DNA of 64,000 nt from Thermoplasmatota archaeon (GTDB lineage Archaea; Thermoplasmatota; Thermoplasmata; Thermoplasmatales; GCA-001856825): NCBI GenBank assembly GCA_023381415.1, contig JAMCUN010000032.1, positions 27,025 through 91,024 of the forward strand, in the 5' to 3' direction. The notes under the pieces are model-generated. The model saw nothing but the letters and a program-made list of their open reading frames with translations, had not been told where the DNA came from and did not search any database. Below, piece by piece: positions 2,849-25,882 of this stretch; the stretch's first letter is position 1; every line of letters starts with the position of its first letter. The position numbers and the translations under genes are program-made.

Positions 2849-3383
2849 TCACAGATGATATCTTCTTGGCTGCCTCGTCTGCCTTCCCCTCTTCATTCAT
2901 CACGATCATAAACGGGCAACCTGCACTGCTGGAATAGGATACTGCATAATTCCTGTTAATTTCGGTGTGCATTCTTATGCTGTCTATAGTGTCATTGTCC
3001 CTGTTTCTCCCAGCATCTTTCTTCCTTCTCTCAAAAACTTTTGTGGGATCTGCCTCTATAGAAATTAGAAGGTCAGGCTTTAGTTCCTTAAGTACGTGCG
3101 CAGGTAGTCCAGGGAGGTATCCGCACTCCGTTGCAATGGAGAAGTGGGTATCTATGATCACAGATTTGATCGTGGAAAGATATCTTGCAGCCAGCTTCTG
3201 GATTTCCTTCTGCTTCTCCACCGGTAATTTCCTCATCTCATCCCTGTCCTTCACGTATTTCTTTCTTTTAGCCTCCTTCAGCATTATGTCACCGTAGTTT
3301 TCAACCCTGAATCCTTCTTTGACAAGCCCGTCCAGTACAGTGGTTTTTCCAACCCCAGGTATTCCTCCAATTATTACTCTCGT
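2823..3383 (-). CDS. adkA: Archaeal-type adenylate kinase; start extended to a non-canonical ACG codon
   Basis: Frame extended upstream of the listed ORF (start 3284) reads TRVIIGGIPGVGKTTVLDGLVKEGFRVENYGDIML (Walker A); in-frame TAA directly precedes ACG; GGAGGG lies 6 nt upstream. Confidence 0.8.
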   Translation of the reverse strand, partial: TRVIIGGIPGVGKTTVLDGLVKEGFRVENYGDIMLKEAKRKKYVKDRDEMRKLPVEKQKEIQKLAARYLSTIKSVIIDTHFSIATECGYLPGLPAHVLKELKPDLLISIEADPTKVFERRKKDAGRNRDNDTIDSIRMHTEINRNYAVSYSSSAGCPFMIVMNEEGKADEAAKKISSVIGSQGKGK

Positions 3384-3782
3384 TTAAATCCCTCCGAATA
3401 AGTCAAAATTCAACGGAAGTCCATCCGTCGTTCTCATCATTCTTGAGGCCCGATATTGTTCTCTCTGAGACCGTGGAAGACCGCAAACGTAGCAAGGTGA
3501 ATATTCAATTACCGCACTCTGTGAAGACAAAGGTCCACGAGATCTGTCAATTCTTCCGCCATCCCTGAAGTTGGTAAGATTGTGTCTATCATTCCTGACT
3601 GCTCCATATCTTGTTTCAAAGGCGGGTCTATAAAGTTCACGTCCTTCTGAATCCACTTCAGGGGTTCCCTCCTTCATTCCAAGTATTTCTAAGACTCTTC
3701 TTTCCAAGCATCTGATGGCAAGAACGTCATCATCCTTTTGGTTCCCCTCACCGATCTCAGAGCTGTCAGCATTGGTCTCCAT
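3384..3782 (-). CDS. Uncharacterised ~132 aa protein with CxxC (ORF track start 3806; internal Met at 3782 fits promoter position better)
   Basis: Open frame of 140 codons; conserved operator/TATA just upstream; stop codon abuts adkA; no family recognised. Confidence 0.4.
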   Translation of the reverse strand: METNADSSEIGEGNQKDDDVLAIRCLERRVLEILGMKEGTPEVDSEGRELYRPAFETRYGAVRNDRHNLTNFRDGGRIDRSRGPLSSQSAVIEYSPCYVCGLPRSQREQYRASRMMRTTDGLPLNFDLFGGI

Positions 3783-3826
3783 AGCAGGCCCATTACCAAT
3801 ACCCATCTTCGATTAAGAACACCGCA

Positions 3827-3840
3827 CCTTATCCGTAAGG
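3827..3840 (-). promoter_or_regulatory. CCTTA-N4-TAAGG operator upstream of orphan-adkA-hppA unit
   Basis: ccttatccgtaagg, exact match to the shared palindrome. Confidence 0.75.
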
Positions 3841-3887
3841 CATTTTCGGAGATTCTCAATCTTTAATGAGGGAATGTAAAAGTTCCT

Positions 3888-5057
3888 CTATACAGCTGGT
3901 CTGCGTCCTATGGAGGTCAGATAGGTCAATGCGAAGAACCTGTATGCAAGGTGCGCAAATTTTGAGTATGGGAAATAGGCAACTAGCATGAATACTAGAA
4001 TGAGATGTATCATATAGGTCCAATAGGCCAAAGAAATGCCGTCCAGGCGGAGGAGTTCCATGACGAATCCTGTGCACACTATCAGGAGGAGGAGAATGAG
4101 GAAGAACCAGTCGAAGTAGGTATCCTCTTTGGGGACCTTGCTCGTAGTCCTGTTGATTATGGCTATAAGTAGACCTGGCAATATCAGGACTGTTCCTATG
4201 TTCCCTATGATATTCTGGGGTTCCCCAAGCAAAGCGTGGGAGAATCCGAATACGTGAATCTCTAGTGCACCTGTAAATGTTGCAAGGAGCAGGACGCAAA
4301 ACCCGTAGAATATCAGGATGTGGGCATAGTACCTATTGCGGTTAGAACCGCATACGCTGAACCAGGTATGCAGGATGACGTCCTTGAGGGTCAATATCGC
4401 AGCAATCACAGCGTTCATTTTACCCTTCTTCTGCTTGCTCAAAGTCCTGTAATACCTGAAACATCCGTAGAGGAGCGCGAGTATCGCATATGCCCCAACT
4501 ATTATTCCTGCAGTATCCAGATAATTGTAAGGAACAAGGCTTGAGAAGTAGATTGGACCGCCATTTGGGACCCTGATTCCTGTCGCCAGGAAGAACACAA
4601 TCATGAGGACGACCGGGACGAGCGCAAATAAAGCAAGGAATGCTTTCTTTGAAAATGCCCTTGATATAGCTCTCGGCCATGAGTATGTTTCTATCACCAT
4701 TGAACGAAGGGCACCAAGGACGCTCCCAGGTTTTGCATTTCTCGGGCATTCCTTTGAGCAGTCTTCACAGTTATGGCACATCCAAATGTCAGGGTCTGCC
4801 ATTAGCTTGTCCTTCAACCCCCACTGAGTCCAGAGCATCTCCTTCCTCGGGAAAGGGGACTCAGATGGACTGAGCGGACAGACCACGGAGCATTCCGAGC
4901 ATTGCATGCACTTCTTGACGTCTCCTCCTCCCCTTCTTGTAACTTCGTTCACGAAATTCAAGTCAACTTCTATCCTCTGCCTAGAAACTGGATTGGAGGT
5001 ACTCACGTTAAAGCCCCCTGAATGGATTTGGCCCAAACTTCCTGACAGATTCAACAA
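3888..5057 (-). CDS. qmoC: Quinone-interacting membrane-bound oxidoreductase subunit C (HdrC/HdrE-like fusion); actual start likely inside the ORF
   Basis: CMQCSECSVVCP and CHNCEDCSKECP Fe-S motifs followed by TM heme b-type domain; adjacent to QmoB/QmoA/AprAB. Confidence 0.88.
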   Translation of the reverse strand: MLNLSGSLGQIHSGGFNVSTSNPVSRQRIEVDLNFVNEVTRRGGGDVKKCMQCSECSVVCPLSPSESPFPRKEMLWTQWGLKDKLMADPDIWMCHNCEDCSKECPRNAKPGSVLGALRSMVIETYSWPRAISRAFSKKAFLALFALVPVVLMIVFFLATGIRVPNGGPIYFSSLVPYNYLDTAGIIVGAYAILALLYGCFRYYRTLSKQKKGKMNAVIAAILTLKDVILHTWFSVCGSNRNRYYAHILIFYGFCVLLLATFTGALEIHVFGFSHALLGEPQNIIGNIGTVLILPGLLIAIINRTTSKVPKEDTYFDWFFLILLLLIVCTGFVMELLRLDGISLAYWTYMIHLILVFMLVAYFPYSKFAHLAYRFFALTYLTSIGRRPAV

Positions 5058-7218
5058 AACCGTCTATTATGTTACCAACCTTGCTCCAGTCCGAAAGCTC
5101 TATCTGCTCAATCCTGAGCCTTTCAGGCTCAAGGGCCAGATTGTCAAGTGTCTCTTTGAGGGCTTTCAACCTCTGGCTCTCAAGTTCAGAACCCCTGACG
5201 AAGTGGCACTGATAATCGCTACCGTATTTGCATCCCAGGAACAGCAATCCGTCTATTCCCTCAGAGAGAGAATCAGCTACCAGGACGCTGTTTACTGACC
5301 CGAGGCACCTGACAGGTATTATCCTGACTTCCTCGCTGTACTTCATCCTCTCCCTGGAAGCGATGTCAAGTGCTGGATATGCATCGTTTTCACAGGCGAA
5401 GACTACGATCCTCAACTTGTCATCTTCTTCTGGAATCTTTATTGATTTTATCATGCTGTGCAGGATGTCGACAGAATATTGCTTGAATGAAATCGCCTGG
5501 ACCGGGCAGGCGCCCATGCATATTCCGCAATCCCTGCATCTAAGAGGGTTGTAGAGGGGGAAGGTCTTAGCATCCTCATCGATTGCTCCAAAGGGGCACT
5601 CCTCAGTGCATCTCCTGCACTGTGTGCATCTTTGAAGTGAGATTGTGAGATGATCCTCCTCCCCAACCTTTGGTGGCCCTATTATCAATCCCCTATCTGC
5701 AAGCTCCACTGTCTGTATTGCCTTCAGTGCGGCACCCTTTGCGTCAATTTCACACGTTGCAACATTTGAGGGGGACCTGGCAGTCCCTGCCGCGAATATA
5801 CCCGTCCTTCTGGATTCATAGGGGAAGCATACGTAGTGTGAATCCGGGAACCCATCCATGAGCGTAGGCAACTCGGGGCCCTGTCTGTACCTCAAGTTAA
5901 GTATATGTTCCCCAGAGGTGGCAGTAGCACCATCAGAGAGTTTGTAGGGATTCAGGTGTGAATACGAGAGTGGTCCATTTTCTGGATGCTCCTCCTTCAC
6001 GTTGTACATTCCGAATTCAGAAGAAATCATCCCGGTTGCAAGTACAACCTTGTCCACCCTGATATCAGTTCCAAAATCCAGGAAACCACCGTTTAATTTG
6101 AGTTCCATACCAGGCTCACCGTCATTCCACGAAATTTCATCAACGTCTGCCTTCGCAAGGAATATCCCACTGTCTTCCTGAGCCTTCTTGTAGAATTCCT
6201 CATAAACTCCCAGGGCCCTCATGTCCTTATAGAAGATGAATACCTTTGAGTCCCTCACTCTCTCCCTTATCTGGAGTGCTTCTTTCAGAGAAGCGGCACA
6301 ACAAACGCTTGAACAGTAGGGGAGGTTCTGATCGTCTCTCTGCCCGGCACACAGCACAAATGCAAATGTCTTTTGATTCGCAAAGGAGTTTCCGTCCTTC
6401 AGGAGTTTCTCCAGTTCGAGAGTTGTAATTATGTCAGGATTCAGCCCATACTTGTACTTCTTTATCTTGCTGGCGTCATACGGTTTCCATCCTGTGGCAA
6501 CTATTATGGACCCCACCCTTATGATGGCCTCAGAACTTGGGCTCTTTATCTGGACATCAAACATTCCCGGTTGACCTGATATTGATCCAATTGAACTCGA
6601 CAAGAATGTTTTGATCCTGCTATCCTCCTTGAGGCGTGCAATCCTTTCATTGATAAAGGAAGATGCGTCGACCGTATCCCTGTACGGTGACTTGACGGGA
6701 AGAATCCTTCCATATTCCGCAACCTTTCCACCTAGCTTTCCCTCCTTCTCTACCAGGAACACGTTGTAGTTTGCCTTAGCTGCCTCTAGTGCGGCGGTTA
6801 TGCCCGTTATCCCCCCTCCAATTACAAGAATGTCCTTTGAAATTTCTTCGTCTATCAAGGTTGCAAGAGATTTCCGCATGACGGAATTTATCCCCATCCT
6901 CAGGTAGTCTTCCGCCATACTCTGCATCGCCTCGTTTGATTGATGCGACCAAATGATTCCTTCCCTTAGGTTCACCCTCTCCAGTATGGAATCATTTTCT
7001 ACGCTGAAATTGGCCTGTTTCTCCCTTGGGGAGCAGGCCGCAATGACGACGTTTCCGTGAACATTCCTTAGTAATTCGGGGCTGTTGCACAATTCGCTGG
7101 ATATTGATACCTCCCCCTTGAACTCCCTTTCGGCTATCCCCTTCAGTTTCTCGATGTCTAGCTTCTTGCCTATATCGCACCCGCTGCATATCAGGACGTT
7201 TAGCTTCATTTCGTTCAT
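5008..7218 (-). CDS. qmoB: QmoB, HdrA-like flavoprotein with ferredoxin and MvhD-like C-terminal domains
   Basis: VIGGGITGITAALEAAKANYNVFLVEKEGKLGG FAD motif; CTQCRRCTEECPFGAI, CRDCGICMGACPVQAI; operon context. Confidence 0.9.
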   Translation of the reverse strand: MNEMKLNVLICSGCDIGKKLDIEKLKGIAEREFKGEVSISSELCNSPELLRNVHGNVVIAACSPREKQANFSVENDSILERVNLREGIIWSHQSNEAMQSMAEDYLRMGINSVMRKSLATLIDEEISKDILVIGGGITGITAALEAAKANYNVFLVEKEGKLGGKVAEYGRILPVKSPYRDTVDASSFINERIARLKEDSRIKTFLSSSIGSISGQPGMFDVQIKSPSSEAIIRVGSIIVATGWKPYDASKIKKYKYGLNPDIITTLELEKLLKDGNSFANQKTFAFVLCAGQRDDQNLPYCSSVCCAASLKEALQIRERVRDSKVFIFYKDMRALGVYEEFYKKAQEDSGIFLAKADVDEISWNDGEPGMELKLNGGFLDFGTDIRVDKVVLATGMISSEFGMYNVKEEHPENGPLSYSHLNPYKLSDGATATSGEHILNLRYRQGPELPTLMDGFPDSHYVCFPYESRRTGIFAAGTARSPSNVATCEIDAKGAALKAIQTVELADRGLIIGPPKVGEEDHLTISLQRCTQCRRCTEECPFGAIDEDAKTFPLYNPLRCRDCGICMGACPVQAISFKQYSVDILHSMIKSIKIPEEDDKLRIVVFACENDAYPALDIASRERMKYSEEVRIIPVRCLGSVNSVLVADSLSEGIDGLLFLGCKYGSDYQCHFVRGSELESQRLKALKETLDNLALEPERLRIEQIELSDWSKVGNIIDGFVESVRKFGPNPFRGL

Positions 7219-8459
7219 TTCCTCACTCCCGAATTCCGCAGTAGCTGTATTGCACTCAGGGTGGCCGCTTCCGCATCCTGATTGGACTGGCTTACATCAC
7301 CAACCTTGTGTGCGACCCCACACGAGAATAGGCCATCGTCGCTTACAAATCCATTTTCATCATATGAGACCCCTTTTATGCCACTGGCCACTGAACTTGG
7401 TTCCATTCCAGTCGCAAGAACTACAAACTCGACCTCCCTTCCAACCTTGGTTCCAGAAAGGGTATCCTCGGCCTGGACCAGAAGATTATCGTTTCCGAGC
7501 TCATCTATCTTTGACACTTTTCCCCTGATAAATTCAACGCTACGGTCTGATTCAAGCCTTTTCAGGAAATGTTCGTATATACCGTACGCCCTGAGGTCGA
7601 TATAGAATATCTGTATCTTGATTTCTGGATACAGCGTTTTCAGATAGTTGGCCTGTTTGATGGTGGCAAGGCAGCAGACCTGGGAGCAATACTTCAGGTT
7701 GTTTTCGTCCCTTGAACCTGCGCATTGCACGAAAGCGACGCTCTTTGGTTCCTTTCCATCAGATCTCCTGACAATCCTGCCGCTGAAAGGCCCGTTAGGA
7801 GACGCTATTCGTTCCATCATCAGGTTAGTCACAACGTTCTTGAACTTCCCGAACCCAAGGTAATGGATTTTTTCAGCGTCGTATTGCTTCCATCCAGTCG
7901 ATATTATTACTGCCCTGGCATCAATGGTAATGTTTTTCCCCTTTTCCGTCAGATCAATTGCCCCATAGGCACAGGCTTCTACGCATTTTGAGCATTCAAC
8001 CCCTTTACAATTCCTTTGGTCTATCACGTATCTGTTGGGGAATGCATACTGGTGAGGGAGGTATATTGCCTTCGTCGTGTCCATGCCGAAGTTGAAGTCG
8101 TTCTCCCTTGATACATCGCAGGCTTCTACGCATTTTCCGCAGGAGGTGCATCTATCATTTACAAATCTCGGGCTGAGGGTTATCTCCGCAGTGTAGTCTG
8201 ATCCGCCTTTGGAAACATTTTTGACTTCAGCCCCCGTATATATCGTAAGGTTTCTCAGATTCTTGGCTCTCCTGAGCAGTATTTCAAGCCCACATTGAGG
8301 AGGGCAGAGCTTCGGAAAATATTTGTAGAATTGGACAACCCTCCCGCCTAGGTAGAAGTTTTTCTCCACCAGCGTGACGTTGTACCCTATTTCCGCTGCT
8401 TCCACTGCAGCAGTGATTCCTGCTATACCTCCTCCGACTACCAGTACATCTGTGTTCAA
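7215..8459 (-). CDS. qmoA: QmoA, HdrA-like flavoprotein
   Basis: VVGGGIAGITAAVEAAEIGYNVTLVEKNFYLGGRV; CTSCGKCVEAC; between aprA and qmoB. Confidence 0.9.
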   Translation of the reverse strand: MNTDVLVVGGGIAGITAAVEAAEIGYNVTLVEKNFYLGGRVVQFYKYFPKLCPPQCGLEILLRRAKNLRNLTIYTGAEVKNVSKGGSDYTAEITLSPRFVNDRCTSCGKCVEACDVSRENDFNFGMDTTKAIYLPHQYAFPNRYVIDQRNCKGVECSKCVEACAYGAIDLTEKGKNITIDARAVIISTGWKQYDAEKIHYLGFGKFKNVVTNLMMERIASPNGPFSGRIVRRSDGKEPKSVAFVQCAGSRDENNLKYCSQVCCLATIKQANYLKTLYPEIKIQIFYIDLRAYGIYEHFLKRLESDRSVEFIRGKVSKIDELGNDNLLVQAEDTLSGTKVGREVEFVVLATGMEPSSVASGIKGVSYDENGFVSDDGLFSCGVAHKVGDVSQSNQDAEAATLSAIQLLRNSGVRK

Positions 8460-8493
8460 GTCGCTACATCCCTAAAAAAAGAAGGGGAAAGGA

Positions 8494-10437
8494 TTAAATT
8501 GTGTAATCCGCGACCTGAACGTACGGTACCTTCTGCAGGTTCCAGGAACCCGTTGAAGGGTCCCTCCTCCCAACAGTGAAGCACTTCCACTCCTTGTCAT
8601 CAAGTTTGGGATAATCTGTCCTGTAATAGTATCCAGGCCATCTGGTCTCCTTTCTGAACCTGAGGTGCTCACCGTGTGCTTCGGCAACGGTTATCCTGTG
8701 AACCATTTCCCAGCATCGCATCAGTTCGTGAAGGTTTCTGGCTGCTAGTTTTTCTGAATCCTCCCTCAGCTTCCCTATTCTCTTCAGCCCCTCTGCAAGG
8801 TAGGCATCGCTTGTCCTGTACCATGTGGAGATACCTCCCATGTACTCATCCATGATCTTCTGCAGTCTCCAGAGGGTCTGCTTCGGGAACAGATAGTTCG
8901 GGTTTATCTCCTCAGCCGTTGTTGCATCCTTGAACTGTTCATAGGTTTCCATAGGCTTGAAAACCTTCTTCTTCATCTCAGCTACCTTGGAATCATCTAT
9001 TGTAGGTTCGAAGTTCTGTTCAACTGAGTACCTTACAGCTTCCTTGCCGGCAATTCTCCCTTCTGCAAATGAACCGCTTGAGAATTTATGGGGTGAAGCA
9101 CCTGCATTATCGCCTATAGCGAAGAGCCCTTTAATTGTCGTCATCCTGTTATACTGCAGAGGGAAGAGCGTTTTGTATTCATCAGGCATCAGATCGTCTG
9201 GCCCGCATACCCACAATCCAGCACATCCTGAATGTGAGCCCATCAGGTATGGCTCAGCAGCAGCAATTTCTGACGGAGTCTTATCAGGTTCCACGTCATT
9301 AGCTGCCCACAGCAGGGCCTGGTCAACTGTCATGTCCAAGAAGTCTTCCCATGCTTCGTCAAGAACTTTCTTCGTCTTCTTCGGGTCACCGGCTCCCAAT
9401 TTTCCAATTGCCTCGTCTGTCCTCATCCAGATCGGGCCGCGTCCGTTGACCATTTCCTCTATCATCTGGTGGTTCCTCAGTGGAGTAGGGACTGGCGTGG
9501 CACTTGCGTACGGTTGGTAAGGCGCAATCGTTTCCACGTTCTCAGTGTAATCCTTCCCATATGCATTCGTTGCCTTGCTCTTGAACAGAAGGAACCACGC
9601 ACCAACAGGCCCGTACCCGTCTTTGAATCTTGTCGGTATGAACCTGTGTTCCATCTGTGTTGTATGGGCACCAGCTTCTATTGCCATCGCATAGCCAGAA
9701 CCGGTATTGAATACTGCATACCAGATCCTTCCCATTCCTTCGGCAGTGCTCTTGGGCCTGAAGAGGCCAGTCGCCCCCCCAGTAGCTATGATCACTGTCT
9801 TTGCCTTGAATACGTAGAATATTGGATCCCTGACACTGAACCCCACCGCACCTGCAACTCTCGTGGGGTCATTCTTGTCCATAAGCAGGTGAGTAATGAA
9901 GACCCTTTCGTACAGATTCTCTTCCCCAATTGCCTTCTTAGCCCCTTCTGCAACAATAGGCTTGTAGGACTCCCCGCTGATCATTATCTGCCACCTGCCT
10001 TCCCTCACGTACTTCCCGTTCTCGTCCTTCCACAGTGGCAGTCCCCACTTTTCGAATAAGTGGACGCTATCATCCACATTCCTTGCATAATCAGCAACTA
10101 GGTCTTCCCTCGAGACTCCCATCATGTCCAGATTTACGTATCTGACAAACTCTTCAAGAGCAATGGGTTTATTGTTCGTGAACTGCGACCTATCAGAAAG
10201 TCCCATGTAGCAGTTTATTGCGGAGAGGCCGTGAGCGACTGCTCCACTTCTCTCAATTGCGGCCTTCTCAACCAGTATGACTTTCTTTCCAGCAGCTTTT
10301 GCCCAGTAAGCAGCCTCGAATGCGGCACCGCATCCTGACATCCCTCCTCCAACTATCAGGACATCTGCTTCAACAGTCTTGGTCTTTATGTCAGATTCCT
10401 TGAACGTTTCCACTTTCCTGTACGACTCAACTGCCAT
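8494..10437 (-). CDS. aprA: Adenylylsulfate (APS) reductase alpha subunit
   Basis: VLIVGGGMSGCGAAFEAAYWAKAAGKKVILVEKAAIERSGAVAHGLSAIN flavoprotein signature of AprA; followed by qmoABC. Confidence 0.96.
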   Translation of the reverse strand: MAVESYRKVETFKESDIKTKTVEADVLIVGGGMSGCGAAFEAAYWAKAAGKKVILVEKAAIERSGAVAHGLSAINCYMGLSDRSQFTNNKPIALEEFVRYVNLDMMGVSREDLVADYARNVDDSVHLFEKWGLPLWKDENGKYVREGRWQIMISGESYKPIVAEGAKKAIGEENLYERVFITHLLMDKNDPTRVAGAVGFSVRDPIFYVFKAKTVIIATGGATGLFRPKSTAEGMGRIWYAVFNTGSGYAMAIEAGAHTTQMEHRFIPTRFKDGYGPVGAWFLLFKSKATNAYGKDYTENVETIAPYQPYASATPVPTPLRNHQMIEEMVNGRGPIWMRTDEAIGKLGAGDPKKTKKVLDEAWEDFLDMTVDQALLWAANDVEPDKTPSEIAAAEPYLMGSHSGCAGLWVCGPDDLMPDEYKTLFPLQYNRMTTIKGLFAIGDNAGASPHKFSSGSFAEGRIAGKEAVRYSVEQNFEPTIDDSKVAEMKKKVFKPMETYEQFKDATTAEEINPNYLFPKQTLWRLQKIMDEYMGGISTWYRTSDAYLAEGLKRIGKLREDSEKLAARNLHELMRCWEMVHRITVAEAHGEHLRFRKETRWPGYYYRTDYPKLDDKEWKCFTVGRRDPSTGSWNLQKVPYVQVADYTI

Positions 10438-10440
10438 GCT

Positions 10441-10893
10441 TTACCTCACCTTCTTTCTAATTGTGAACCTTGCAGGGTCCTTGCATTCCCTTCCTCCTGC
10501 GTAGTCCTTTGATTTGAGTTTGTCTAGCGTTGGTGCTTCTATTCCGCCGAAAGGATCAATTGAATCCCAAGGGGTAGTCCTGATGGGGAACTTGAATCTC
10601 TGTACCTTCCCGTTCCTGAATTTTGCTGTCCACATTATGGAGTCTGTCCCTCTCTTTGGAGTAACCTTTGCACCAAGAGGAACAAAGTCCGCATATCCCC
10701 TTACTTCAATTGCATCCTTCGGGCATGTCTTAACGCACGAGTAACATTCCCAGCACTGATCTGGTTCTTGATTGTACGCCTTCATTTTCACGCTGTCAAG
10801 AATCATTAGGTCGTTTGGGCAAATATATTGGCAAGCAGTTCTTGCAAGGGCTTTGCATCCATCACACTTGTTCGGATCAACATAAGTCGGCAT
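10441..10893 (-). CDS. aprB: Adenylylsulfate reductase beta subunit
   Basis: CDGCKALARTACQYICPNDLM and CWECYSCVKTCPKDAIEVRGYADFVPLGA; immediately upstream of aprA. Confidence 0.96.
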   Translation of the reverse strand: MPTYVDPNKCDGCKALARTACQYICPNDLMILDSVKMKAYNQEPDQCWECYSCVKTCPKDAIEVRGYADFVPLGAKVTPKRGTDSIMWTAKFRNGKVQRFKFPIRTTPWDSIDPFGGIEAPTLDKLKSKDYAGGRECKDPARFTIRKKVR

Positions 10894-10912
10894 TCTTAAT
10901 ACATCTCCGCAG

Positions 10913-10987
10913 CCTGACTGCCAGGTGCGCTCAAGTTATAATTCAGCCACCTCGTGATTAAACTCGAGTGTCGCCTGGGGAATCAGG
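10913..10987 (-). promoter_or_regulatory. Imperfect 75-nt hairpin in the predicted aprBA mRNA leader
   Basis: Minus strand: CCTGA...CCAGG...CTCGAGTT...AACTTGAG...CCTGG...TCAGG, nested complementary arms with a G-U wobble that only pairs in the minus-strand RNA. Confidence 0.5.
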
Positions 10988-11026
10988 TTACAACTGATTA
11001 GCTGTACACAATATATGAATTTCAAC

Positions 11027-11040
11027 CCTTACTCATAAGG
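11027..11040 (-). promoter_or_regulatory. CCTTA-N4-TAAGG operator upstream of aprBA-qmoABC, followed by GAAATTCATATAT promoter
   Basis: ccttactcataagg, exact match. Confidence 0.8.
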
Positions 11041-11632
11041 CATTTTGGGGGTGATGCAAATTAGGGATATCGGAAAAAACTATGGAACGAGGCTGTAAAG
11101 ATGAAAGTGTTTAGCAAAGATAGAGATCAGTTCATTGTGAATAGCTAGGCATTTTCCCGATCAATAACAGTTGAAATAAGGACTGACACTATTTCCAAAC
11201 TCATTTGGATTTGCCTGAGCTATTACCCGCATTCCGGCCGCGGTTAGATGGGTGTGAATCTCATTTTTGTGGGATGCATCTCATTCCGGAAGCGTTCATC
11301 TCCAGGATACTGAGGAAAGGGGGAAATGCAATGAACTGAATGATAGAAACGGCAGGTTTCGACTTTCGAGCAATAGGAAGATGAGGGTAAAGAATTGATT
11401 GTTGTATTGCAACCAACACTGAGCAAGGGAAGAGAAGATCCCCTTATTTTCTAAGGTTGTATGTGATAGACATATAAAAGGGAATGAATTGGAATGAATT
11501 CCAATATTTCTGTACCGCAAATTTTGTCTCAGTTCAGATTGAAAGGTTAAGATGGTAGGCGGGAGGGATTGTTCACTGCTGAAGTATGCTATGAATGCAA
11601 GCCAGGCTGGAAAAGTCAGAGGTGGAAATATA

Positions 11633-11646
11633 CCTCATCCCTAAGG
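11633..11646 (+). promoter_or_regulatory. Degenerate operator (9/10 arm positions) upstream of sat
   Basis: cctcatccctaagg. Confidence 0.55.
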
Positions 11647-11721
11647 GTATGTTATTAAGCCAAATTTCAGGATAAATCAACTAGTCCTCGTAAGGGGAAT
11701 TTGAGTCCTGGAGTATGATTT

Positions 11722-12993
11722 ATGATGACGAGTTATGTTGGTCACAACGGAAAAACAATAGTAGACAGGGTAGAGGCCGATGGAAGAGAAGGAAGGTTAG
11801 GCGGGATGCTTACCATTCCTGTGAGAAGAGAAATTGCCCACGAGATAATTAGCTTATCTTATGGCTTCTTCACTCCTCTCGAAGGCTTCATGAACCGAGA
11901 ACAGGTGGAGAGTACGCTGAATGAGATGGAACTGCCGGATGGGACGCTCTGGAGTATTCCAATTGTTTTTGATCTTGCTCCAGAAAAGATATCCGAGTAC
12001 GGACTGCGCTCTGGCGATGAGGTTCTGCTCGAATACGACGGTTCGCCGATCGCAAGGTTTTCGATGGATGATATCTTTGATTACAACACGGATGAAATGT
12101 CAGAAAAGACATACGGTACAAAAGACCTGAAGCATCCGGGAGTTAAAAGGACGCACTCATATCAAGGCAAATTTATTGGGGGTAAAGTAACTCTGGTAAA
12201 TGAGCCAAAATTCAATCCACCTTACGACAGGTTCTGGATGACGCCCAAGCAGCATATCGATGCGTTCAGAAAGAAGAAATGGAAACACATAGTTGCCCAT
12301 CAGACGAGAAATGTTCCTCATACCGGCCACGAGGCGCTGATGAAACAGGCCTGGTTTGCAGCCAATGAGGATATGCCAGTTGACCAGATCAGAACAGGTA
12401 TCCTGGTAAATGCAATCATAGGAGAGAAGAGGGTGGGGGATTACATCGACGAATCGATACTGCTAACACAGGATGCACTGAGGCAGTATGGTTATTTCAG
12501 GGAGGACGTCCACATGGTCACTTTCACACTATGGGACATGAGATATGCCGGGCCGAGGGAAGCGATATTCCATGCAATTCTCAGAACGAACCTAGGTTGC
12601 ACTCACCACATGTTTGGCAGAGACCATGCAGGCGTTGGGAATTTCTACAGGCCATACGACGCACAGGACTTACTGAAGCAGTACAGGGAAAAACTGAGCA
12701 TTAAACCTGTCTTCCTCATGGAAAACTGGTACTGCCCTGAGTGCGCGGAAGTGACGAATGCGTCCGTCTGCGGTCATGAAAAGAAGGCTCAAAATTTCAG
12801 CGGAACATTGCTTAGGAGCATACTGACCGATGGTGTGAAGCCGACAAAGAAGGTCATGAGACCAGAAGTATTCGATGTTGTGATGAAAAGTGCGTCAGAT
12901 TATGGTGTTGGATCACCATTTGTCACGGAGAAGTACCTTGCATCTAGGAGGCCAATTTTCAATCTCAGAAAAATGGAGGTGCAGAAGGCATGA
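11722..12993 (+). CDS. sat: Sulfate adenylyltransferase (ATP sulfurylase)
   Basis: HQTRNVPHTGHE, GRDHAG motifs; Cys/His zinc-type insertion CPECAEVTNASVCGHE. Confidence 0.96.
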   Translation: MMTSYVGHNGKTIVDRVEADGREGRLGGMLTIPVRREIAHEIISLSYGFFTPLEGFMNREQVESTLNEMELPDGTLWSIPIVFDLAPEKISEYGLRSGDEVLLEYDGSPIARFSMDDIFDYNTDEMSEKTYGTKDLKHPGVKRTHSYQGKFIGGKVTLVNEPKFNPPYDRFWMTPKQHIDAFRKKKWKHIVAHQTRNVPHTGHEALMKQAWFAANEDMPVDQIRTGILVNAIIGEKRVGDYIDESILLTQDALRQYGYFREDVHMVTFTLWDMRYAGPREAIFHAILRTNLGCTHHMFGRDHAGVGNFYRPYDAQDLLKQYREKLSIKPVFLMENWYCPECAEVTNASVCGHEKKAQNFSGTLLRSILTDGVKPTKKVMRPEVFDVVMKSASDYGVGSPFVTEKYLASRRPIFNLRKMEVQKA

Positions 12994-13307
12994 CAGGAAA
13001 GGGAAACGTGAAAATCAATGTCTGGATCAACGAGGAACGCCTTGATGCTCTCAGGAAGGCGGGACTGGACAGGCTTGCGAAGGAAGAGTTCGCTGGAATG
13101 ATGCTTCTGGAAGTCACCTGCACGGAAGAGCAGAAGGACAAGCTACTGGAACAGTACCCCACGGCCAAATACGACTCATCTACAACACATTCAATAGAGC
13201 TACTCCCGAGGGAAGTAAAGGATAAGATATTCGAAACATCCTTACAACTGCGCTCCACCGGTCCAGAGGTAATAGAAAATATGCTGTCCAGAGGTGGAGG
13301 TAAATAG
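12990..13307 (+). CDS. Uncharacterised ~105 aa protein overlapping the end of sat
   Basis: ATGA overlap with sat; no family recognised. Confidence 0.75.
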   Translation: MTGKGNVKINVWINEERLDALRKAGLDRLAKEEFAGMMLLEVTCTEEQKDKLLEQYPTAKYDSSTTHSIELLPREVKDKIFETSLQLRSTGPEVIENMLSRGGGK

Positions 13308-17772: not shown

Positions 17773-18408
17773 TCACTTGGCTAGTTTTGATGTGCTCTTA
17801 TCCATGCCGTATTTGTAGGCTTTTTCATCTTTCCTATCTGATACAAGCTTCCAGAATATTTCGTCATTCAGAAGGAGGCTGAAGAACCTGGCTTTCTCCT
17901 TGGAACTCCCAAAGTTTACATCCTTTCTCAACCTTTGAATCACCGGAAGGCAGAGTGAGTACCTTACTGTCTGCTCCTTCAGCCTGTCCCTTATGAACCT
18001 TGCCAATGATGGCGATCTTCCGTCTGTGGAAACTGAGAGAGTGACCCCCCCGGAACTGAATGTCGCTGGAAAAATGAACGGACTGTCTGCTTCGTCCACG
18101 CTGTTAAAAAGTAACCCTTTCCTAGAACAGTAATCCCGGATTTCCCTGTTCATATTTCTGTCATCTGTTGCTATCACTACTATTGAGTCCTTGTTCACAA
18201 ATCCAGAAAGCTGTTCAGGATCAGTCAGCCTCATTTTGACCTTCCTTATGTCGGCGGATTCAAACTCGCTGTCAAACTCTTCTGAAATAACTGTAACTTT
18301 CTGAAACTTGGGCTTCATGTTTTCGATTTTCTTTAAAGCAGCGGTGCCTCCTCCAATTACGACTAGATCTCTTGAGGAGACATTCAGCATGATTGGGATG
18401 AATTCCAT
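17773..18408 (-). CDS. Precorrin-2 dehydrogenase / siroheme synthase N-terminal domain protein
   Basis: MEFIPIMLNVSSRDLVVIGGGTAALKKIENM, VIATDDRNMNREI, FSSGGVTLSVSTDGRSPSLARFIRD. Confidence 0.9.
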   Translation of the reverse strand: MEFIPIMLNVSSRDLVVIGGGTAALKKIENMKPKFQKVTVISEEFDSEFESADIRKVKMRLTDPEQLSGFVNKDSIVVIATDDRNMNREIRDYCSRKGLLFNSVDEADSPFIFPATFSSGGVTLSVSTDGRSPSLARFIRDRLKEQTVRYSLCLPVIQRLRKDVNFGSSKEKARFFSLLLNDEIFWKLVSDRKDEKAYKYGMDKSTSKLAK

Positions 18409-19349
18409 TGTTGCATCACCTTTTGCTGATACTCCAATTTCCCTATAACTTCATCCACATCTTTCAAGTCAACCGCTCCTTCCTGTGCTTTCCACGGAGT
18501 AGGGGAGACTATCTTCATGCCGACAATTGCTTCCACAACTTTTCCTATCACAATAATGCCAGGTGCAGATATCTTTTCTCTTTTTGCAACAGATGCTATG
18601 TTGGAGACTGTCCCGCAAATAATTCTCTGCCTCTTCTTTGTTCCGTCCTGAATTATGATTGTCCCCATTTCCGGGTCCATCCCCGCCTCTATCAAGTCTC
18701 TTGTAATTTCATCCAGCATCCCTATCCCCATCAGTATTACAAGAGTCCCCCCGAACCTGGCAATGTAGTTCCAGTCGTTCACTTCTTCCTTTCCAGAATC
18801 CTTCTTTCTGTGCCCAGAAATTATCATCAAGGACGAAGAATAGTCCCTGTGTGTGAGCGGGACGCATGCCGCTGTAGGTACAGATATAGCAGAGGTAAGA
18901 CCCGGAACGATCTCAAACTCTATCCCTTCCTTTTTTAGAAATTCAACCTCCTCGCCTCCTCTTCCAAATATGAAGGGGTCTCCGCACTTCAGTCGGACCA
19001 CATTCTTCCCTTCATTTGACAGATTCAGCATCAGTCTGTTTATTTCCCCTTGTTTTGAATCCGGCTCAACACCGTGATCTGTCCCTACCATAACGGCTTC
19101 CCTCCCTTTTGGAATTAATTCAAGGATAGCTCTATCGACCAGTCTGTCGTATAGCACAACGTCAGCCTTCTCCAGAGTTCTAACAGCTTTAAGGGTCAGC
19201 AGTTCCGGGTCTCCAGGCCCGGCACCGACCAGGAACACCTTCCCTCTCTTCTTCTCATCCAAAGTCAGGTTGCATCCATTCCCTCTGTCCCGTCCTGCCT
19301 TCGTCTTTGAAGGGGAGACCGAACTGCTGCTATCAATTATGCGTGACAT
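18384..19349 (-). CDS. cobA: Uroporphyrinogen-III C-methyltransferase (SUMT)
   Basis: KVFLVGAGPGDPELLTLKAVRTLEKADVVLYDRLV; VRLKCGDPFIFGRGGEE; VPGLTSAISVPTAACVPLTHR. Confidence 0.95.
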   Translation of the reverse strand: MSRIIDSSSSVSPSKTKAGRDRGNGCNLTLDEKKRGKVFLVGAGPGDPELLTLKAVRTLEKADVVLYDRLVDRAILELIPKGREAVMVGTDHGVEPDSKQGEINRLMLNLSNEGKNVVRLKCGDPFIFGRGGEEVEFLKKEGIEFEIVPGLTSAISVPTAACVPLTHRDYSSSLMIISGHRKKDSGKEEVNDWNYIARFGGTLVILMGIGMLDEITRDLIEAGMDPEMGTIIIQDGTKKRQRIICGTVSNIASVAKREKISAPGIIVIGKVVEAIVGMKIVSPTPWKAQEGAVDLKDVDEVIGKLEYQQKVMQQWNSSQSC

Positions 19350-19358
19350 TCAATCCTC

Positions 19359-20744
19359 CTACAGCTCCATTGCATATCCGACCAGATCCATTAGGCCGTG
19401 ATTCTGCATCTTGACCTTGTGATAGTCCATGACGTATGGCATCTGCGCTTTGTCTATTGCGCACGGGGAAACCATGTGCTCCGCTCCAGTCCTCCAGGAG
19501 AAATAGACCGCGGGCCAGCCTGACCAGGCCCTGTACTCATTCCATTCCTTTTCGTCTGCGAGAAGTCCGCCACCTGCGCCGCAACAAAGAGTCTTTTCCC
19601 TGTTGTACTTCGCCTCTACAGTCTCCCTCACCACTGCCTTAAGGACGTCCCTCGGTTCGTTTACGAGGTTTCCTCCCCTGGCAAGGTTGCACGGGTCGTG
19701 ATAATTGAAAAGATCATCGTTCTTGTTCCTGTCCACGTGAATCTGCTTCCTTTCTATTGCCTTAGCCGTGATCTGATGTATGTGCCTTAGCTCGATCCCT
19801 CTCTTTGAAAGTTCGTAGCGTACATAATTGTTTGCGGTTCTCCACCCGTGTCCGCACTCCCCCCAGACTACCATTTTAACTCCTGTCTTTACAGCCTCAC
19901 TCACAACCATGTCCCCGAAGTCCCTCAGATGCCTTTCACTCGCAAATGTTCCAAAGTTTGCTGCCTCCGTTGTGTTGGTTGAAATGGTCCATTCCTTCTT
20001 GAGGGTCTGAAGGACTTTGGCATAACCTTTCAGTGTGTCGTTGTTGACGAATATATCTGCGGAGGAAGGGATCATCAGCACATCAGCCTTTGGAAGATTC
20101 AAGGGAATTTCTATCTTTTTCCCCGACTCTGAGAGCATCTCATCCTCGACGAATGATACGACGTTCTTGATGAATTTCTCTTTAAGGCCCATGTTGTTCC
20201 CCGTCTTGTATACCTGTGTCATAGTTGCCGTGACGTATTCTGAAATAATCCCCATGTCTGTCAGAATGTTCCTTATGTTCCTTGTTATCTCTGCCTGGTC
20301 TATACCGGCCGGGCAGAAAACAGAACATCTCCTGCATTCAGTGCATTGATAATAGTACGAGTACAGCTTGTTGAGATCCACGTCTTTTGGAGTTGCGTCG
20401 TCGCAGATCTTGTAAAGTTTTCTCACCAGATTTGCCCGTCCCACTGGGCTGTTGTTGATGTCCCCGGTGGCTATGAACATCTGGCATTTGTCTATGCATT
20501 CACCGCACCTGGTGCAGCTTTCCATGAATGTGACAAAAGCCCTGTTCTTTTTCAGATCCTTGAATCTCTCAAGGAAATATGCCTCATCTCCTTTTTTATC
20601 TACCTTTATTCCTTCTAGCTGCTGGTCCTTTGCCCTCCTTTCAGCGGATGATACTGCCCATTCGATATCTTTCTGTTTTGACAGCCATTCTTCTGCCTTT
20701 CCACTGGGGGACTCGAGGATTATGTCTCTAATCTTTGGTTTCAT
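19359..20744 (-). CDS. dsrK: DsrK, HdrD-like catalytic Fe-S subunit of the DsrMK complex
   Basis: CTRCGECIDKCQMF, CTECRRCSVFCPAGI, CCG-domain CCGAGGG; start reassigned to ATG at 20744 (MKPKIRDI). Confidence 0.92.
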   Translation of the reverse strand: MKPKIRDIILESPSGKAEEWLSKQKDIEWAVSSAERRAKDQQLEGIKVDKKGDEAYFLERFKDLKKNRAFVTFMESCTRCGECIDKCQMFIATGDINNSPVGRANLVRKLYKICDDATPKDVDLNKLYSYYYQCTECRRCSVFCPAGIDQAEITRNIRNILTDMGIISEYVTATMTQVYKTGNNMGLKEKFIKNVVSFVEDEMLSESGKKIEIPLNLPKADVLMIPSSADIFVNNDTLKGYAKVLQTLKKEWTISTNTTEAANFGTFASERHLRDFGDMVVSEAVKTGVKMVVWGECGHGWRTANNYVRYELSKRGIELRHIHQITAKAIERKQIHVDRNKNDDLFNYHDPCNLARGGNLVNEPRDVLKAVVRETVEAKYNREKTLCCGAGGGLLADEKEWNEYRAWSGWPAVYFSWRTGAEHMVSPCAIDKAQMPYVMDYHKVKMQNHGLMDLVGYAMEL

Positions 20745-21486
20745 TTGCCTCACCCGGATGGAAAATGGAATACATGGTAGGGTTTGTAAGGAAGGAGTAG
20801 GGGTGCATGAATTTGCTACAGGGGAAGTATATGAGGAGAGTGCAGACAAGGAAGAAGTGTATTATGAACGGCCATTGAAAAGGTATGTTAATGGGGGAGA
20901 GGGTGAATATGGAATGGATGTATGGGGAGACTTGATTGTATGCAAATAGGGATGGGAGGGCCACCCTCATGTAAATTCCGGATATCCCAATTGCAATTAT
21001 GAGAAGAATCGAAAAGTAATCTGCAGTGCTACTTATCCTCCTGACATACTTGTCTGTGATCCTTCTGAGCAGGAGAAGGAATCCTGCTGCCACCATGATC
21101 ACAGCAAGGCTGGTCCCAAGGTACGTCCCTATCATTTCCATTGTCTGCTCACTTATGCCAATAGAGGCAAAGTATGGCATCAGAACCAAGTCTGCATGAG
21201 CTGCTATGACTATCCAGAGTGACCAGTGGAACGTCATAGTGACAGTCCTGAGGTAAGGATCATCCTTCAAGCTTGAGAATAGAAATATTCTCTTTAGCAT
21301 GTTTTTGAATGCACTTGCCCTGCTAGTGTTTCCAGGGAAGGTCAGGAGGTATGGGTATCCAAGGTATGTGCCGGAAGTCCCCTTAGGTAGAAATATCCAC
21401 CTGGCTATGACTATTATGCTCCCGATTACGAAAATGAGACCCGCTGCGCATGCGTATGACAGTATCAACCAGGAAAAGAGTGTCAT
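20728..21486 (-). CDS. dsrM: DsrM, NarI-like heme b membrane subunit
   Basis: Multiple TM segments with His residues; YFPCSKFMHP C-terminal motif; overlaps dsrK. Confidence 0.88.
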   Translation of the reverse strand: MTLFSWLILSYACAAGLIFVIGSIIVIARWIFLPKGTSGTYLGYPYLLTFPGNTSRASAFKNMLKRIFLFSSLKDDPYLRTVTMTFHWSLWIVIAAHADLVLMPYFASIGISEQTMEMIGTYLGTSLAVIMVAAGFLLLLRRITDKYVRRISSTADYFSILLIIAIGISGIYMRVALPSLFAYNQVSPYIHSIFTLSPINIPFQWPFIIHFFLVCTLLIYFPCSKFMHPYSFLTNPTMYSIFHPGEANETKD

Positions 21487-21521: not shown

Positions 21522-22580
21522 CTACCTAGTTCCTCCGTCCCTAAGGGTCATCATTCCTCTTACGTCCAGGTATTCCATGCTCTGACCGTAGAACGGAAGC
21601 CCAGTCTTCTCATAGAAGCTTTCCCACCCTATCCTGTCTACCCAGTCTGCAATCCTTTCGCCTTTCCTAGCATCCTTCTTCCACGTTTCTATTATCCTTG
21701 TTACCACGGCCACAGTTTTCTTGTAATATGGAGGCTCATTTGGGAGATAAGGAACGACCACCCTTCCAAGGGTAGTTCCTACCCTAGACGGTACCGCCTT
21801 ACCCCCTATTGAGATCGCATGTCCATCTGTCTTCTCCGGAGTCTCGAATATTATTCCTCCGCACGCTCCTACACAAAGTCCGCAACCTATGCATAGGTTC
21901 GCCCTTATCTCTAGCGTCCTTGATCCGTCAGGTAGTTGCTTCAGCTGAATGGCTCCAACTGGGCACGTATAAGCTGTACCCTGGAGATCACATTTCGAAA
22001 CTTCTGGAGTCACTATCGGGATCTCGGTATGAATACCGCTTATGGATATATCCGTCAAGAAGCTGTTTCCACAGGAACTGGGACACCCTGAGGATGATAT
22101 CGTCAGCTTAGCAGGCAGCTCCTCTTTGTTGAAGTACTTTCCAAGGTTGTTTGCAAGGTTCTGAAGTATGGAGGGAGCATCTGTAGCTGCAAGCGCGCAG
22201 TGGAAATACCCGGCGCAGGACGTCATGTTCCAGAGGTGTCCATCCCATCCTCCAATCGGGAACCCGAGGTCCTCCATTTCCGTCTTAAGACTTATGGCAT
22301 CGTTTAGGTCCTTGGTCACGAACTCCATGTTTATTCCTCCGGTAAACCTCATGCTTGCACCTGCGTACTTCCTAGCTATAGCAGAGATTTTCCTCATTGT
22401 CTCAGTGCTGTACCTTCCATTTGGAGTTGAGGCAACTCTGACCGTGTAAATTTTGTTTCCTGATGTATCCAGATGCTCTATTATCCCCGGCTCGAGAACT
22501 TTATGAGTCTTCCATTTTCCGACGGATTCTTTAAGGTAAGGGGGAATAAAGTTCGTGTAAGGTCTTGCTGGTCCCTCCAT
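21522..22580 (-). CDS. dsrB: Dissimilatory sulfite reductase beta subunit
   Basis: TSCAGYFHCALAATDA, SSSGCPSSCGNS siroheme-[4Fe-4S] Cys pattern; ferredoxin domain CIGCGLCVGAC. Confidence 0.93.
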   Translation of the reverse strand: MEGPARPYTNFIPPYLKESVGKWKTHKVLEPGIIEHLDTSGNKIYTVRVASTPNGRYSTETMRKISAIARKYAGASMRFTGGINMEFVTKDLNDAISLKTEMEDLGFPIGGWDGHLWNMTSCAGYFHCALAATDAPSILQNLANNLGKYFNKEELPAKLTISSSGCPSSCGNSFLTDISISGIHTEIPIVTPEVSKCDLQGTAYTCPVGAIQLKQLPDGSRTLEIRANLCIGCGLCVGACGGIIFETPEKTDGHAISIGGKAVPSRVGTTLGRVVVPYLPNEPPYYKKTVAVVTRIIETWKKDARKGERIADWVDRIGWESFYEKTGLPFYGQSMEYLDVRGMMTLRDGGTR

Positions 22581-22583
22581 TGT

Positions 22584-23771
22584 TCATTCACCTCCAACTG
22601 CTTTCTTTATCTCTTCTGGCATTCTTTCCCTCTCCTCTCCATTGACCGAATAGAAGATATTTGTCCTGAGGTCTTTCGCATTATGTGCCTGAGGTTTTGT
22701 TTTCATAAGGTCAAGGAAATTCTTCATTCCTATCCTGAACATCAGGTCGCCCATCCTCTCTTTCCTCGCCGCCTGTTCCCCGTAGATATCTACCATAGTA
22801 CCTATCAAGTTCATCGCCTCTTCTATCGAGTTAACTTTGGTAAACAGTTTTCCGGAAAGGGGTCCTTTCTTGCCCCTTAGCTTTCCGCCTGCATATATCA
22901 GGTACTGCTTTTCCCTCCCCTGAGATATCGCGCCTCCGCTATTCCTCACACATATCATGCACTGAGTGCAGTCCTCCCCCTTTATGGAAATCCCGGAGCC
23001 GTGTCTTGATATTGCTCCGGTTGGGCAGCTTCTGATTATGTTGTCCAACTTTTCCGAGTCCATCTTTGAGATGAGGGATTGATTTACCTCAGGAGCTCCC
23101 TTCCAGGAACCGACAATCCCTATGTCAGCCTTCTGCGTCGCCCTGCCACAGTCAATTGGGCAGCCTGAGACCTTAACCTTCACCTTGTGCGGGAAAGTGG
23201 GGAACTTTGCAAAATCGTTGTATTTGTCATAAAAAGAGTCCCTGAACTCGGCCGTATTCAGGTTGGAGTATTCGCATAGTAGGCTTCCTACGCAGGTTGT
23301 CACGGCCCTGAATGCGTCACCTGTCGAGCCACACTCGAACCCTCTCTGTCTCAGTTCTGTAATGAAGTCCCTTATCTTTTCCTTCGGAATACCCGGTATC
23401 TCAACGTCCTCTCCTGTGCTGATGCCGTGAATCATTCCCACCCCGTATTTGTCGGCAAGTTCACAGAGGGTATCCAGCATATCAGATGTGAGGAAGTTGC
23501 CTGAAGGTATCAGGACCCTAACAATGTTAGCGTTCTCTCCAATATCTGGTCTGCTTGTGACCCTCATCAGTATCCCTGTCGGTGCTCCGGGGACAGAAAC
23601 ATACCCGCCGGTTGTGAAGAGATCTCTCTTCAGGGCCAGCGACGCTCCATAGAGGTCAACTGGATAGCGGGTCTTTTCTGCTTCCCTCACAAAATTTGGC
23701 CAGTCTCCTTTTTTGAGTTCGTTCAATATCTTTCTTCCTTGAATAACCTCTTCCGGGACTTCTGACATCAT
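22584..23771 (-). CDS. dsrA: Dissimilatory sulfite reductase alpha subunit
   Basis: TTCVGSLLCEYSNLNT, KVSGCPIDCGRATQKADIGIVG; ferredoxin-like CTQCMICV. Confidence 0.94.
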   Translation of the reverse strand: MMSEVPEEVIQGRKILNELKKGDWPNFVREAEKTRYPVDLYGASLALKRDLFTTGGYVSVPGAPTGILMRVTSRPDIGENANIVRVLIPSGNFLTSDMLDTLCELADKYGVGMIHGISTGEDVEIPGIPKEKIRDFITELRQRGFECGSTGDAFRAVTTCVGSLLCEYSNLNTAEFRDSFYDKYNDFAKFPTFPHKVKVKVSGCPIDCGRATQKADIGIVGSWKGAPEVNQSLISKMDSEKLDNIIRSCPTGAISRHGSGISIKGEDCTQCMICVRNSGGAISQGREKQYLIYAGGKLRGKKGPLSGKLFTKVNSIEEAMNLIGTMVDIYGEQAARKERMGDLMFRIGMKNFLDLMKTKPQAHNAKDLRTNIFYSVNGEERERMPEEIKKAVGGE

Positions 23772-24067
23772 TTACCACCTCTGAACTCCTGCAGTGCGTA
23801 CGACGTTCCTACGGCATACCCCTTTGTTCTAAGGTATCCGATGAATTTCTCCGTTTCTGACTCGTTTGGCTTCACCCTCAAAATGGGGATTTTCTCATCA
23901 GGTTCCTGTATTTTTTCACACTTTGCTATCGTGTTTATGCAGTTTGGGCAGATTTGGTCTCTCGTTAGCAAGTACTTCATCCTCTTAGATCTAACGGGAT
24001 CTGTTGCCTCCTCCTCTTTGAATATGTCTATGGAATAGCCGCATATCGGGCATATCAGGTAAATCAA
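23768..24067 (-). CDS. Uncharacterised ~99 aa protein with two CxxC motifs between dsrC and dsrA (TTG start, 1 nt after dsrC stop)
   Basis: L/MIYLICPICGYSIDIFKEE...DQICPNCINTIAKC...; in frame with ORF 23768..24208; ATGA overlap with dsrA. Confidence 0.8.
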   Translation of the reverse strand: MIYLICPICGYSIDIFKEEEATDPVRSKRMKYLLTRDQICPNCINTIAKCEKIQEPDEKIPILRVKPNESETEKFIGYLRTKGYAVGTSYALQEFRGGK

Positions 24068-24068
24068 G

Positions 24069-24425
24069 TTACACACACCCCGTGGGTTTTGGAGCGCCGG
24101 CCATCCTGCAAGCACCTTTAGCTGGTCCAGTGGGGAATAAGCTGTATATGGTTTTAAGATCAAAGCCAGTCTCCTTCGTAAGCATCCTGATTGGCGGACA
24201 ACTGTCAAAATTCAAGTAATAGTTCCGAAGATAGTTAATGACCTTCCAGTGGTCGTCAGTCAGTTTTGCGACTCCTTCGTCAGCAGATATCGCATTCACG
24301 AATTCGGGGCACCAGTCAGATGGATTTAGGAGAAATCCTTCTTCATCTATTCCTATATCCTTCTCAGCCCCATCCTTGGTCTTAACGTGAACACGCCTTT
24401 CAGTAGCGTCTCCCATATAGATCAC
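24069..24425 (-). CDS. dsrC: DsrC sulfur-carrier protein
   Basis: IDEEGFLLNPSDWCPEF; two conserved C-terminal cysteines spaced by 10 residues: ACRMAGAPKPTGCV. Confidence 0.96.
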   Translation of the reverse strand: MIYMGDATERRVHVKTKDGAEKDIGIDEEGFLLNPSDWCPEFVNAISADEGVAKLTDDHWKVINYLRNYYLNFDSCPPIRMLTKETGFDLKTIYSLFPTGPAKGACRMAGAPKPTGCV

Positions 24426-24774: not shown

Positions 24775-25149
24775 ATGCCTGTTAACAAGGCCAGGAAGAA
24801 AAAGAAGGTCGTTTTCTTCTCGATGATTCCGCCAGGAGATTCAGCAAGACTGGAGACAATGCTCGGATATGCAAACGCTGCGGCCCTGATGGATTACGAA
24901 GCGATGATCTTTCTGCTCTTAGATGGTGCACTGGTAAGCAAGGCGCAGGTATTCGAGAAGCTCGGACCTAAGGTGAAGGAGAGAATAAAGGAAGCTATAG
25001 AGAACGGTGTTTTGCTCAAGGTCTGTTCTTCTGCCGCTCAGAGTTTCGGAATAGACGAGACAAACATCGTGAAGGGCTTCCAGATTGAGGGAATTGCATC
25101 GTTCTATGTGTACGCCGAAGACGCATCAATTGTGCTTTCTTGGACTTAG
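24775..25149 (+). CDS. DsrE/DsrF-like family protein
   Basis: KVVFFSMIPPGDSARLETMLGYANAAALMDYEAMIFLLLDGA; conserved Cys in LLKVCSSAAQSFGI. Confidence 0.8.
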   Translation: MPVNKARKKKKVVFFSMIPPGDSARLETMLGYANAAALMDYEAMIFLLLDGALVSKAQVFEKLGPKVKERIKEAIENGVLLKVCSSAAQSFGIDETNIVKGFQIEGIASFYVYAEDASIVLSWT

Positions 25150-25264: not shown

Positions 25265-25882
25265 TCATGCCTGGTAAAGATAATTAGTTACAGTCTTCTT
25301 GAGCCCTCTTCTCAGAAGTTCGGAGAGGGAAGCTGGGGTTATGCCCATTACGCGAGATAGATCTGTGAGGGAGAGCCTTCCGTCAATTTCAAAATAACCT
25401 CTCCTAAGTGCTTCCTCAAGTGCCTCTTCCTCCTTTTTTGTCAATTCCTGATGAAGATATGGAGTTACGCTGATGATTGTGTATCTTAGATGAGCACGTT
25501 CAAGTTCGTTCTTGAACAGGCGAAAATCAGCTTTTGAAGCTACAATCACCCTCACCTGTAAGCGCGACCTTCCAATTGAATTCGTTCCAATCGGTTTCAC
25601 AAAAGACATCTTTGAGAACAATTCACACACTGAGCAGCTCGAGCTTTCCACCCAGTACGTCCCTGAATTCACCCTCCTGAGCTTGAATCCCTGGAGCCTC
25701 GCGAATTCTATTGGGTCGCAGTCAGCGGTTGCCTTGACGCGATGGAGCGTGAAATCCGGCCTCATTATCAGCCTCATGATGGAGCAATTTACACCAACAA
25801 GAGCATTTGTCACATGACAATCTTCCCTTTCTATTTCAGCAACAACCTCCAGCGCTGATTTTGAAGGCATAATACTCTCCAT
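25265..25882 (-). CDS. Bacterioopsin-activator (HTH_10)-like transcriptional regulator
   Basis: C-terminal LTKKEEEALEEALRRGYFEIDGRLSLTDLSRVMGITPASLSELLRRGLKKTVTNYL. Confidence 0.88.
   Translation of the reverse strand: MESIMPSKSALEVVAEIEREDCHVTNALVGVNCSIMRLIMRPDFTLHRVKATADCDPIEFARLQGFKLRRVNSGTYWVESSSCSVCELFSKMSFVKPIGTNSIGRSRLQVRVIVASKADFRLFKNELERAHLRYTIISVTPYLHQELTKKEEEALEEALRRGYFEIDGRLSLTDLSRVMGITPASLSELLRRGLKKTVTNYLYQA

Follow-up and report, generated by a model that had tools for sequence, protein, structure and literature searches.

A short gene between dsrC and dsrA, located within a 64,000-nucleotide stretch of a Thermoplasmatota contig (the window), was found to be a conserved component of one type of archaeal dsr operon. 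The gene, which we label gene X (its product, protein X), encodes a family of its own, occupies an invariant position, is under selection and tracks a single type of DsrAB, so that its dedicated link to this dsr type is firm. Protein X is very probably a working part of sulfite reduction in these sulfate- and sulfite-respiring archaea that had gone unnoticed. Tentatively, and at a little less than an even chance, we regard it as an accessory protein that one branch of the reductive archaeal-type dsr systems dedicates to DsrAB-DsrC, with an adaptor or activator as its most likely role. The dsr system itself is known and the component is new; no protein like X is described in the part of the literature that was searched.

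Gene X and its product

The minus strand of the window carries dsrC, gene X, dsrA, dsrB, dsrM, dsrK and two sirohaem synthesis genes, in that order (Table 1); the original prediction had named no strand. The mechanical open reading frame of gene X comprises 146 aa and begins upstream within dsrC, and the original prediction had instead placed its start at a TTG one base past the dsrC stop, giving a protein of 99 aa. This TTG at 24067, one base past the TAA of dsrC, is the right start because nine homologs have ATG and one has GTG at exactly this codon, and the distance from the dsrC stop to the gene X start is 0-2 nt in 11/11. The resulting protein reads (M)IYLICPICGYSIDIFKEE...DQICPNC...FRGGK, and the predicted ATGA shared by its stop codon and the start of dsrA is plainly seen in the sequence.

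Table 1. Gene X and the dsr operon genes of the window
Feature	Coordinates	Strand	Remarks
gene X (unnamed; label of this analysis)	24067..23768	minus	99 codons, TTG start
dsrC	24069..24425	minus	PF04358, E 2.5e-34; both C-terminal arm cysteines (GACRMAGAPKPTGCV)
dsrA	22584..23771	minus	full ferredoxin-domain cysteines; start overlaps gene X stop (ATGA)
dsrB	21522..22580	minus	
dsrM-like (nitrate reductase gamma / DsrM family)	20728..21486	minus	
dsrK	19359..20849	minus	homologs suggest ATG near 20747 (MKPKIRDI) as true start
uroporphyrinogen methyltransferase-like, sirohaem synthesis	18384..19349	minus	
sirohaem synthase N-terminal-like (CysG-N)	17773..18408	minus	

An initial search recovered relatives of protein X in 5 of 60 related genomes (47-58% identity), with E-values of 1e-34 to 5e-41, and the full set comprised 11 distinct sequences, the other ten being 46-61% identical to that of the window. 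Pairwise differences at codon positions 1, 2 and 3 were 0.30, 0.22 and 0.64, the closest pair gave a dN of 0.043 and a dS of 0.313 (dN/dS about 0.14), and purifying selection on the gene is clear. The homolog E-values, the codon-position differences, the dN/dS and the location between dsrC and dsrA in all 11 species establish gene X as a conserved protein-coding gene and no chance open reading frame.

The residues invariant in all 11 sequences are M1, I2, Y3, C6, P7, C9, G10, I13, K28, R29, Y32, L33, R36, D37, Q38, C40, P41, N42, C43, T46, C50, P61, G83 and Y84, with 21 of these 24 falling within residues 1-50. The tetracysteine CxxC/CxxC pattern of the original prediction held up, as C6/C9 and C40/C43 form two invariant CxxC knuckles of the zinc-ribbon kind, and these likely make up a Cys4 metal site; the prediction had overlooked C50, a fifth, spare invariant cysteine outside both motifs. 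Alongside the five cysteines, the stretch KRxxYLxxRDQ is invariant, and the non-cysteine invariants point to a conserved contact surface.

Profile searches against Pfam, NCBIfam and the PDB assigned protein X to no family, and with no curated match in Pfam or NCBIfam, the earlier view that no standard dsr gene has this description is borne out. Most members gave sub-threshold zinc-ribbon matches in Pfam and NCBIfam, with scores far under the curated cut-offs (at best 16.1 bits vs 27 for the window protein). Zinc-ribbon families such as Zn_ribbon_3, HVO_2753_ZBP and the MqsA N-terminal type have paired CPxC motifs in common with protein X, which differs from them in the long conserved helix between its knuckles and in its strict dsr linkage; its CPxCG and CPNC pattern recalls those of zinc ribbons and rubredoxins and is unlike that of a classical Fe-S ferredoxin. 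PF08679 (DsrD) was not among the Pfam matches, and the combination of PF01206 and CPxP typical of TusA/SirA was not found, PF01206 appearing in one member at E 0.019. In AlphaFold models built on the 11 sequences, the window protein reached a pLDDT of 85 and the homolog from MV2-Eury 91, with agreeing secondary structures: a strand, a knuckle, a strand, a helix (24-35), the second knuckle, a short strand and an alpha/beta C-terminal part. The fold is provisional because the five models per run vary widely in confidence.

Distribution among two dsr types

The recurrent place expected of a dsr operon component was found without exception, gene X lying between dsrC and dsrA in 11/11 species; the recurrence that the original prediction had proposed to look for is therefore strict, and it stands beside zinc-ribbon matches that are all sub-threshold, not a strong match to a common family without dsr recurrence. 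The operon form common to all copies is dsrC-X-dsrA-dsrB(-dsrM-dsrK), some contigs or loci ending ahead of dsrM or dsrK. An order-level search of 117 genomes detected dsrB in 14 and gene X in 10 of those 14, and when 390 genomes sampled from the class were searched, gene X was present in 10/18 dsrB-positive and 0/372 dsrB-negative genomes (Fisher P 2e-15), two weak matches among the latter having been inspected and found spurious. Weak matches rejected as protein X were a TFS-like zinc ribbon (G038), a stretch antisense to a symporter gene (G478) and a match spanning just 43 residues (G059).

When Thermoplasmatota operons were sorted by dsr type, gene X was found in 11/11 of one branch and 0/8 of the other, a contrast between two deep clades that is phylogenetically near a single event. 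In the DsrB tree the 11 X genomes cluster together, apart from seven X-less genomes whose DsrB is 36-40% identical to that of the window; the eighth X-less operon (G578) was assigned to its type by BLAST, not by the tree. In the X-less clusters, DsrAB and DsrMK both belong to the other type. One genus (g1) has both types, with gene X in G000 and without it in G010, and two families (f6 and f7) each contain both; since gene X tracks the dsr type and not the species in these groups, it travels with the operon. Among the genomes searched, gene X is confined to one archaeal DsrAB branch in Thermoplasmatota. Reductive archaeal DsrAB has been divided into five clades, with clades 1 and 5 belonging to Thermoplasmatota, and transfer between lineages is described as frequent (PMC12948486); the two types here may be these clades 1 and 5.

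A scan with patterns from the alignment, covering one genome per species in 84,980 species, found protein X only in Thermoplasmata and related archaeal MAGs, although its short exact peptide patterns could miss distant relatives; relatives may occur in Thermoproteota. A genome-wide scan with a single protein X sequence gave no match, none was found in the viral contigs scanned, and plasmids carried no dsrA. The MAG named MV2-Eury (L048), a sulfite reducer (PMC7174415), carries a protein X identical to that of G023, and the main-text passages searched in that paper make no mention of a gene like X.

Gene X was found in genomes with and without aprA, and aprA also occurs in some X-less genomes, so a tie of gene X to sulfate rather than sulfite use was rejected. 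A profile search for DsrD found none in the 18 dsrB-positive genomes; because control genomes were likewise silent, its absence rests partly on published reports that early archaeal dsr systems lack DsrD (PMC10591310), as does MV2-Eury (PMC7174415), which carries gene X.

Proposed role and competing readings

Our favoured reading assigns protein X to the sulfite-to-sulfide step, because it is present with and without aprA, and the few-base spacing, the never-separated genes and the same independence from aprA suggest that DsrAB and/or DsrC should be its partner. C6/C9 and C40/C43 would bind one metal, most likely Zn, that holds the N-terminal half of the protein, KRxxYLxxRDQ and C50 would form a face docking on DsrAB and/or DsrC, and translational coupling would make protein X in step with both of these partners. 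The protein would most likely serve as an adaptor or activator that has no catalytic part, either bringing DsrC to the active site of DsrAB or adjusting how fast DsrAB turns over, and would fill the niche held by DsrD in other sulfite reducers, no DsrD having been found here. DsrD (PF08679), an allosteric activator of DsrAB, is likewise a small dsr-operon protein and occurs in lineages without protein X, and protein X is similarly proposed to act on DsrAB; however, the two have no sequence match, the four-cysteine pattern belongs to protein X, and gene X precedes dsrA, the reported place of DsrD being downstream of dsrAB (PMC10591310). Against this putative role, protein X has no sequence relation to DsrD, the conserved cysteines, including the spare one, fit a redox or thiol role equally, the 11 vs 0 contrast is close to one event, and relatives may exist in Thermoproteota.

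That redox role is a close rival, though less likely, and the evidence sets the adaptor, the redox partner and an assembly factor only loosely apart: protein X would be a rubredoxin-like Fe(Cys)4 carrier or a C50 thiol relay, passing electrons to DsrAB or exchanging disulfides with the DsrC trisulfide, and would then be the DsrAB electron donor of these archaea. Rubredoxins have the spacing C6, C9, G10, Y11 ... C39, C42, which C6, C9, G10, (Y/F)11 ... C40, C43 of protein X nearly copy, including the first knuckle CxxCGY. The weak PDB profile matches were mostly rubredoxins, as were all 15 of the 15 best Foldseek matches of the window model, the fifth cysteine is invariant, and DsrAB has no known electron donor in systems without DsrL (PMC10591310). 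Nevertheless, the Foldseek E-value was only 0.16, the more confident homolog model (pLDDT 91) gave no Foldseek match, the rubredoxin family was missing from the Pfam matches of the 11 members shown up to E 1 (which included a weak rubrerythrin rubredoxin-like match), and the second knuckle is without the glycine of CPxCG; protein X further departs from rubredoxin in its C-terminal alpha/beta part, its length of 99 aa and its extra cysteine. It is unlikely, in our estimate, that an early archaeal sulfite-reductase system has in protein X a new essential subunit, the missing electron or thiol partner to DsrAB or the DsrC trisulfide in the absence of DsrD and DsrL; if it were, the accepted minimal Dsr set would be incomplete for its branch. 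A part in DsrAB assembly, which the original prediction had suggested beside DsrC trisulfide handling, or in DsrAB maturation, by inserting sirohaem or Fe-S clusters or holding DsrA until DsrB and DsrC bind, appears improbable: gene X lies directly ahead of dsrA with sirohaem genes downstream, and TIGR00379 (CbiA type, used for DsrN) had no match in 7/11 X genomes (G000, G026, G045, G055, G084, G085 and G096, some of them incomplete), whereas the other dsr type carries a CbiA-type gene, mostly in or beside the dsr cluster, but protein X resembles no known cofactor-delivery family, and four X genomes do have the CbiA-type gene. The persistence of that gene also led us to reject protein X as a simple replacement for DsrN. 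We give little credence to an operon-encoded metal-ribbon regulator, nucleic-acid-binding or sensory, as suggested by the sub-threshold likeness to zinc-ribbon nucleic-acid-binding families and the KR-rich stretch, because the net charge of the protein is near zero, an HTH_10 regulator already adjoins the operon in many members and a regulator would not need the invariant dsrC-dsrA slot. Least credible is an unrelated hitchhiker retained as the operon spreads as a unit, which would suit a dsr-type contrast so near one event; purifying selection, the 24 invariant residues, the lack of any loss in 11 species and the spacing held at a few bases to both neighbours speak against it.

Other candidate explanations were discarded. 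Protein X as a divergent TusA was rejected with an hhalign probability of 1.3%. DsrC has an extra DWC cysteine in 11/11 X operons, where the other type has N or D, but its pairing with protein X was rejected as a signature because the Desulfovibrio DsrC (2v4j) has DWCPE with no reported protein X.

Published reconstructions take DsrABCMK(N), with DsrN counted in the set, to be the minimal module of sulfite reduction and also the ancestral one (PMC10504309, PMC12948486). They screen known Dsr families only and so cannot see a short gene that has no name. That a small protein keeps its place between dsrC and dsrA throughout a deep branch of archaea suggests an overlooked member of this module, and protein X is a concrete, testable candidate for the electron donor or a regulator of DsrAB in systems that lack DsrL and DsrD. 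The family combines a strong, recurring genomic link with a host range that is narrow so far.

Further sulfur genes of the X-less clusters and the window

In 7/7 X-less operons examined (L033, L034, L088-L092), the ferredoxin domain of DsrA has CxxSxxC, and in 11/11 X operons the normal CxxCxxC; the extra [4Fe-4S] cluster may be altered in DsrA of the X-less type. In four X-less clusters (L033 10325-11848, L034 7530-8689, L088 and L089) tusA lies directly ahead of dsrA, filling the slot of gene X, with DsrE2 and DsrE genes adjoining it. TusA has no profile similarity to protein X and is distinguished by CPxP and another fold, and these clusters represent another architecture of archaeal dsr loci, the second here, that brings sulfur-relay genes of its own.

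Divergent from dsrC, the window has a DsrE/DsrF-family gene (24775-25149, plus strand) with near relatives (56-58%) in X-less clusters. An HTH_10 (bacterio-opsin-activator-like) regulator gene follows at 25265-25882 (minus strand); such a gene is a repeated neighbour of dsrC in many of the X operons and is a candidate dsr regulator. The window also contains a near-complete sulfate-reduction island in the same stretch as the dsr operon (728-12990), with genes for a H+/Na+-pyrophosphatase, adenylate kinase, QmoC, two HdrA/Qmo-type subunits, AprA, AprB and Sat, which makes this archaeon a candidate for the reduction of sulfate as well as sulfite, in contrast to MV2-Eury. In MV2-Eury (G023:C13:150-1844), an AprA-like stretch below the cut-off with one internal stop is perhaps a decayed or divergent aprA. 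Directly 3' of sat in the window, a gene at 12990-13304 (plus strand) encodes a DUF6955 protein, a possible partner of sulfate activation.
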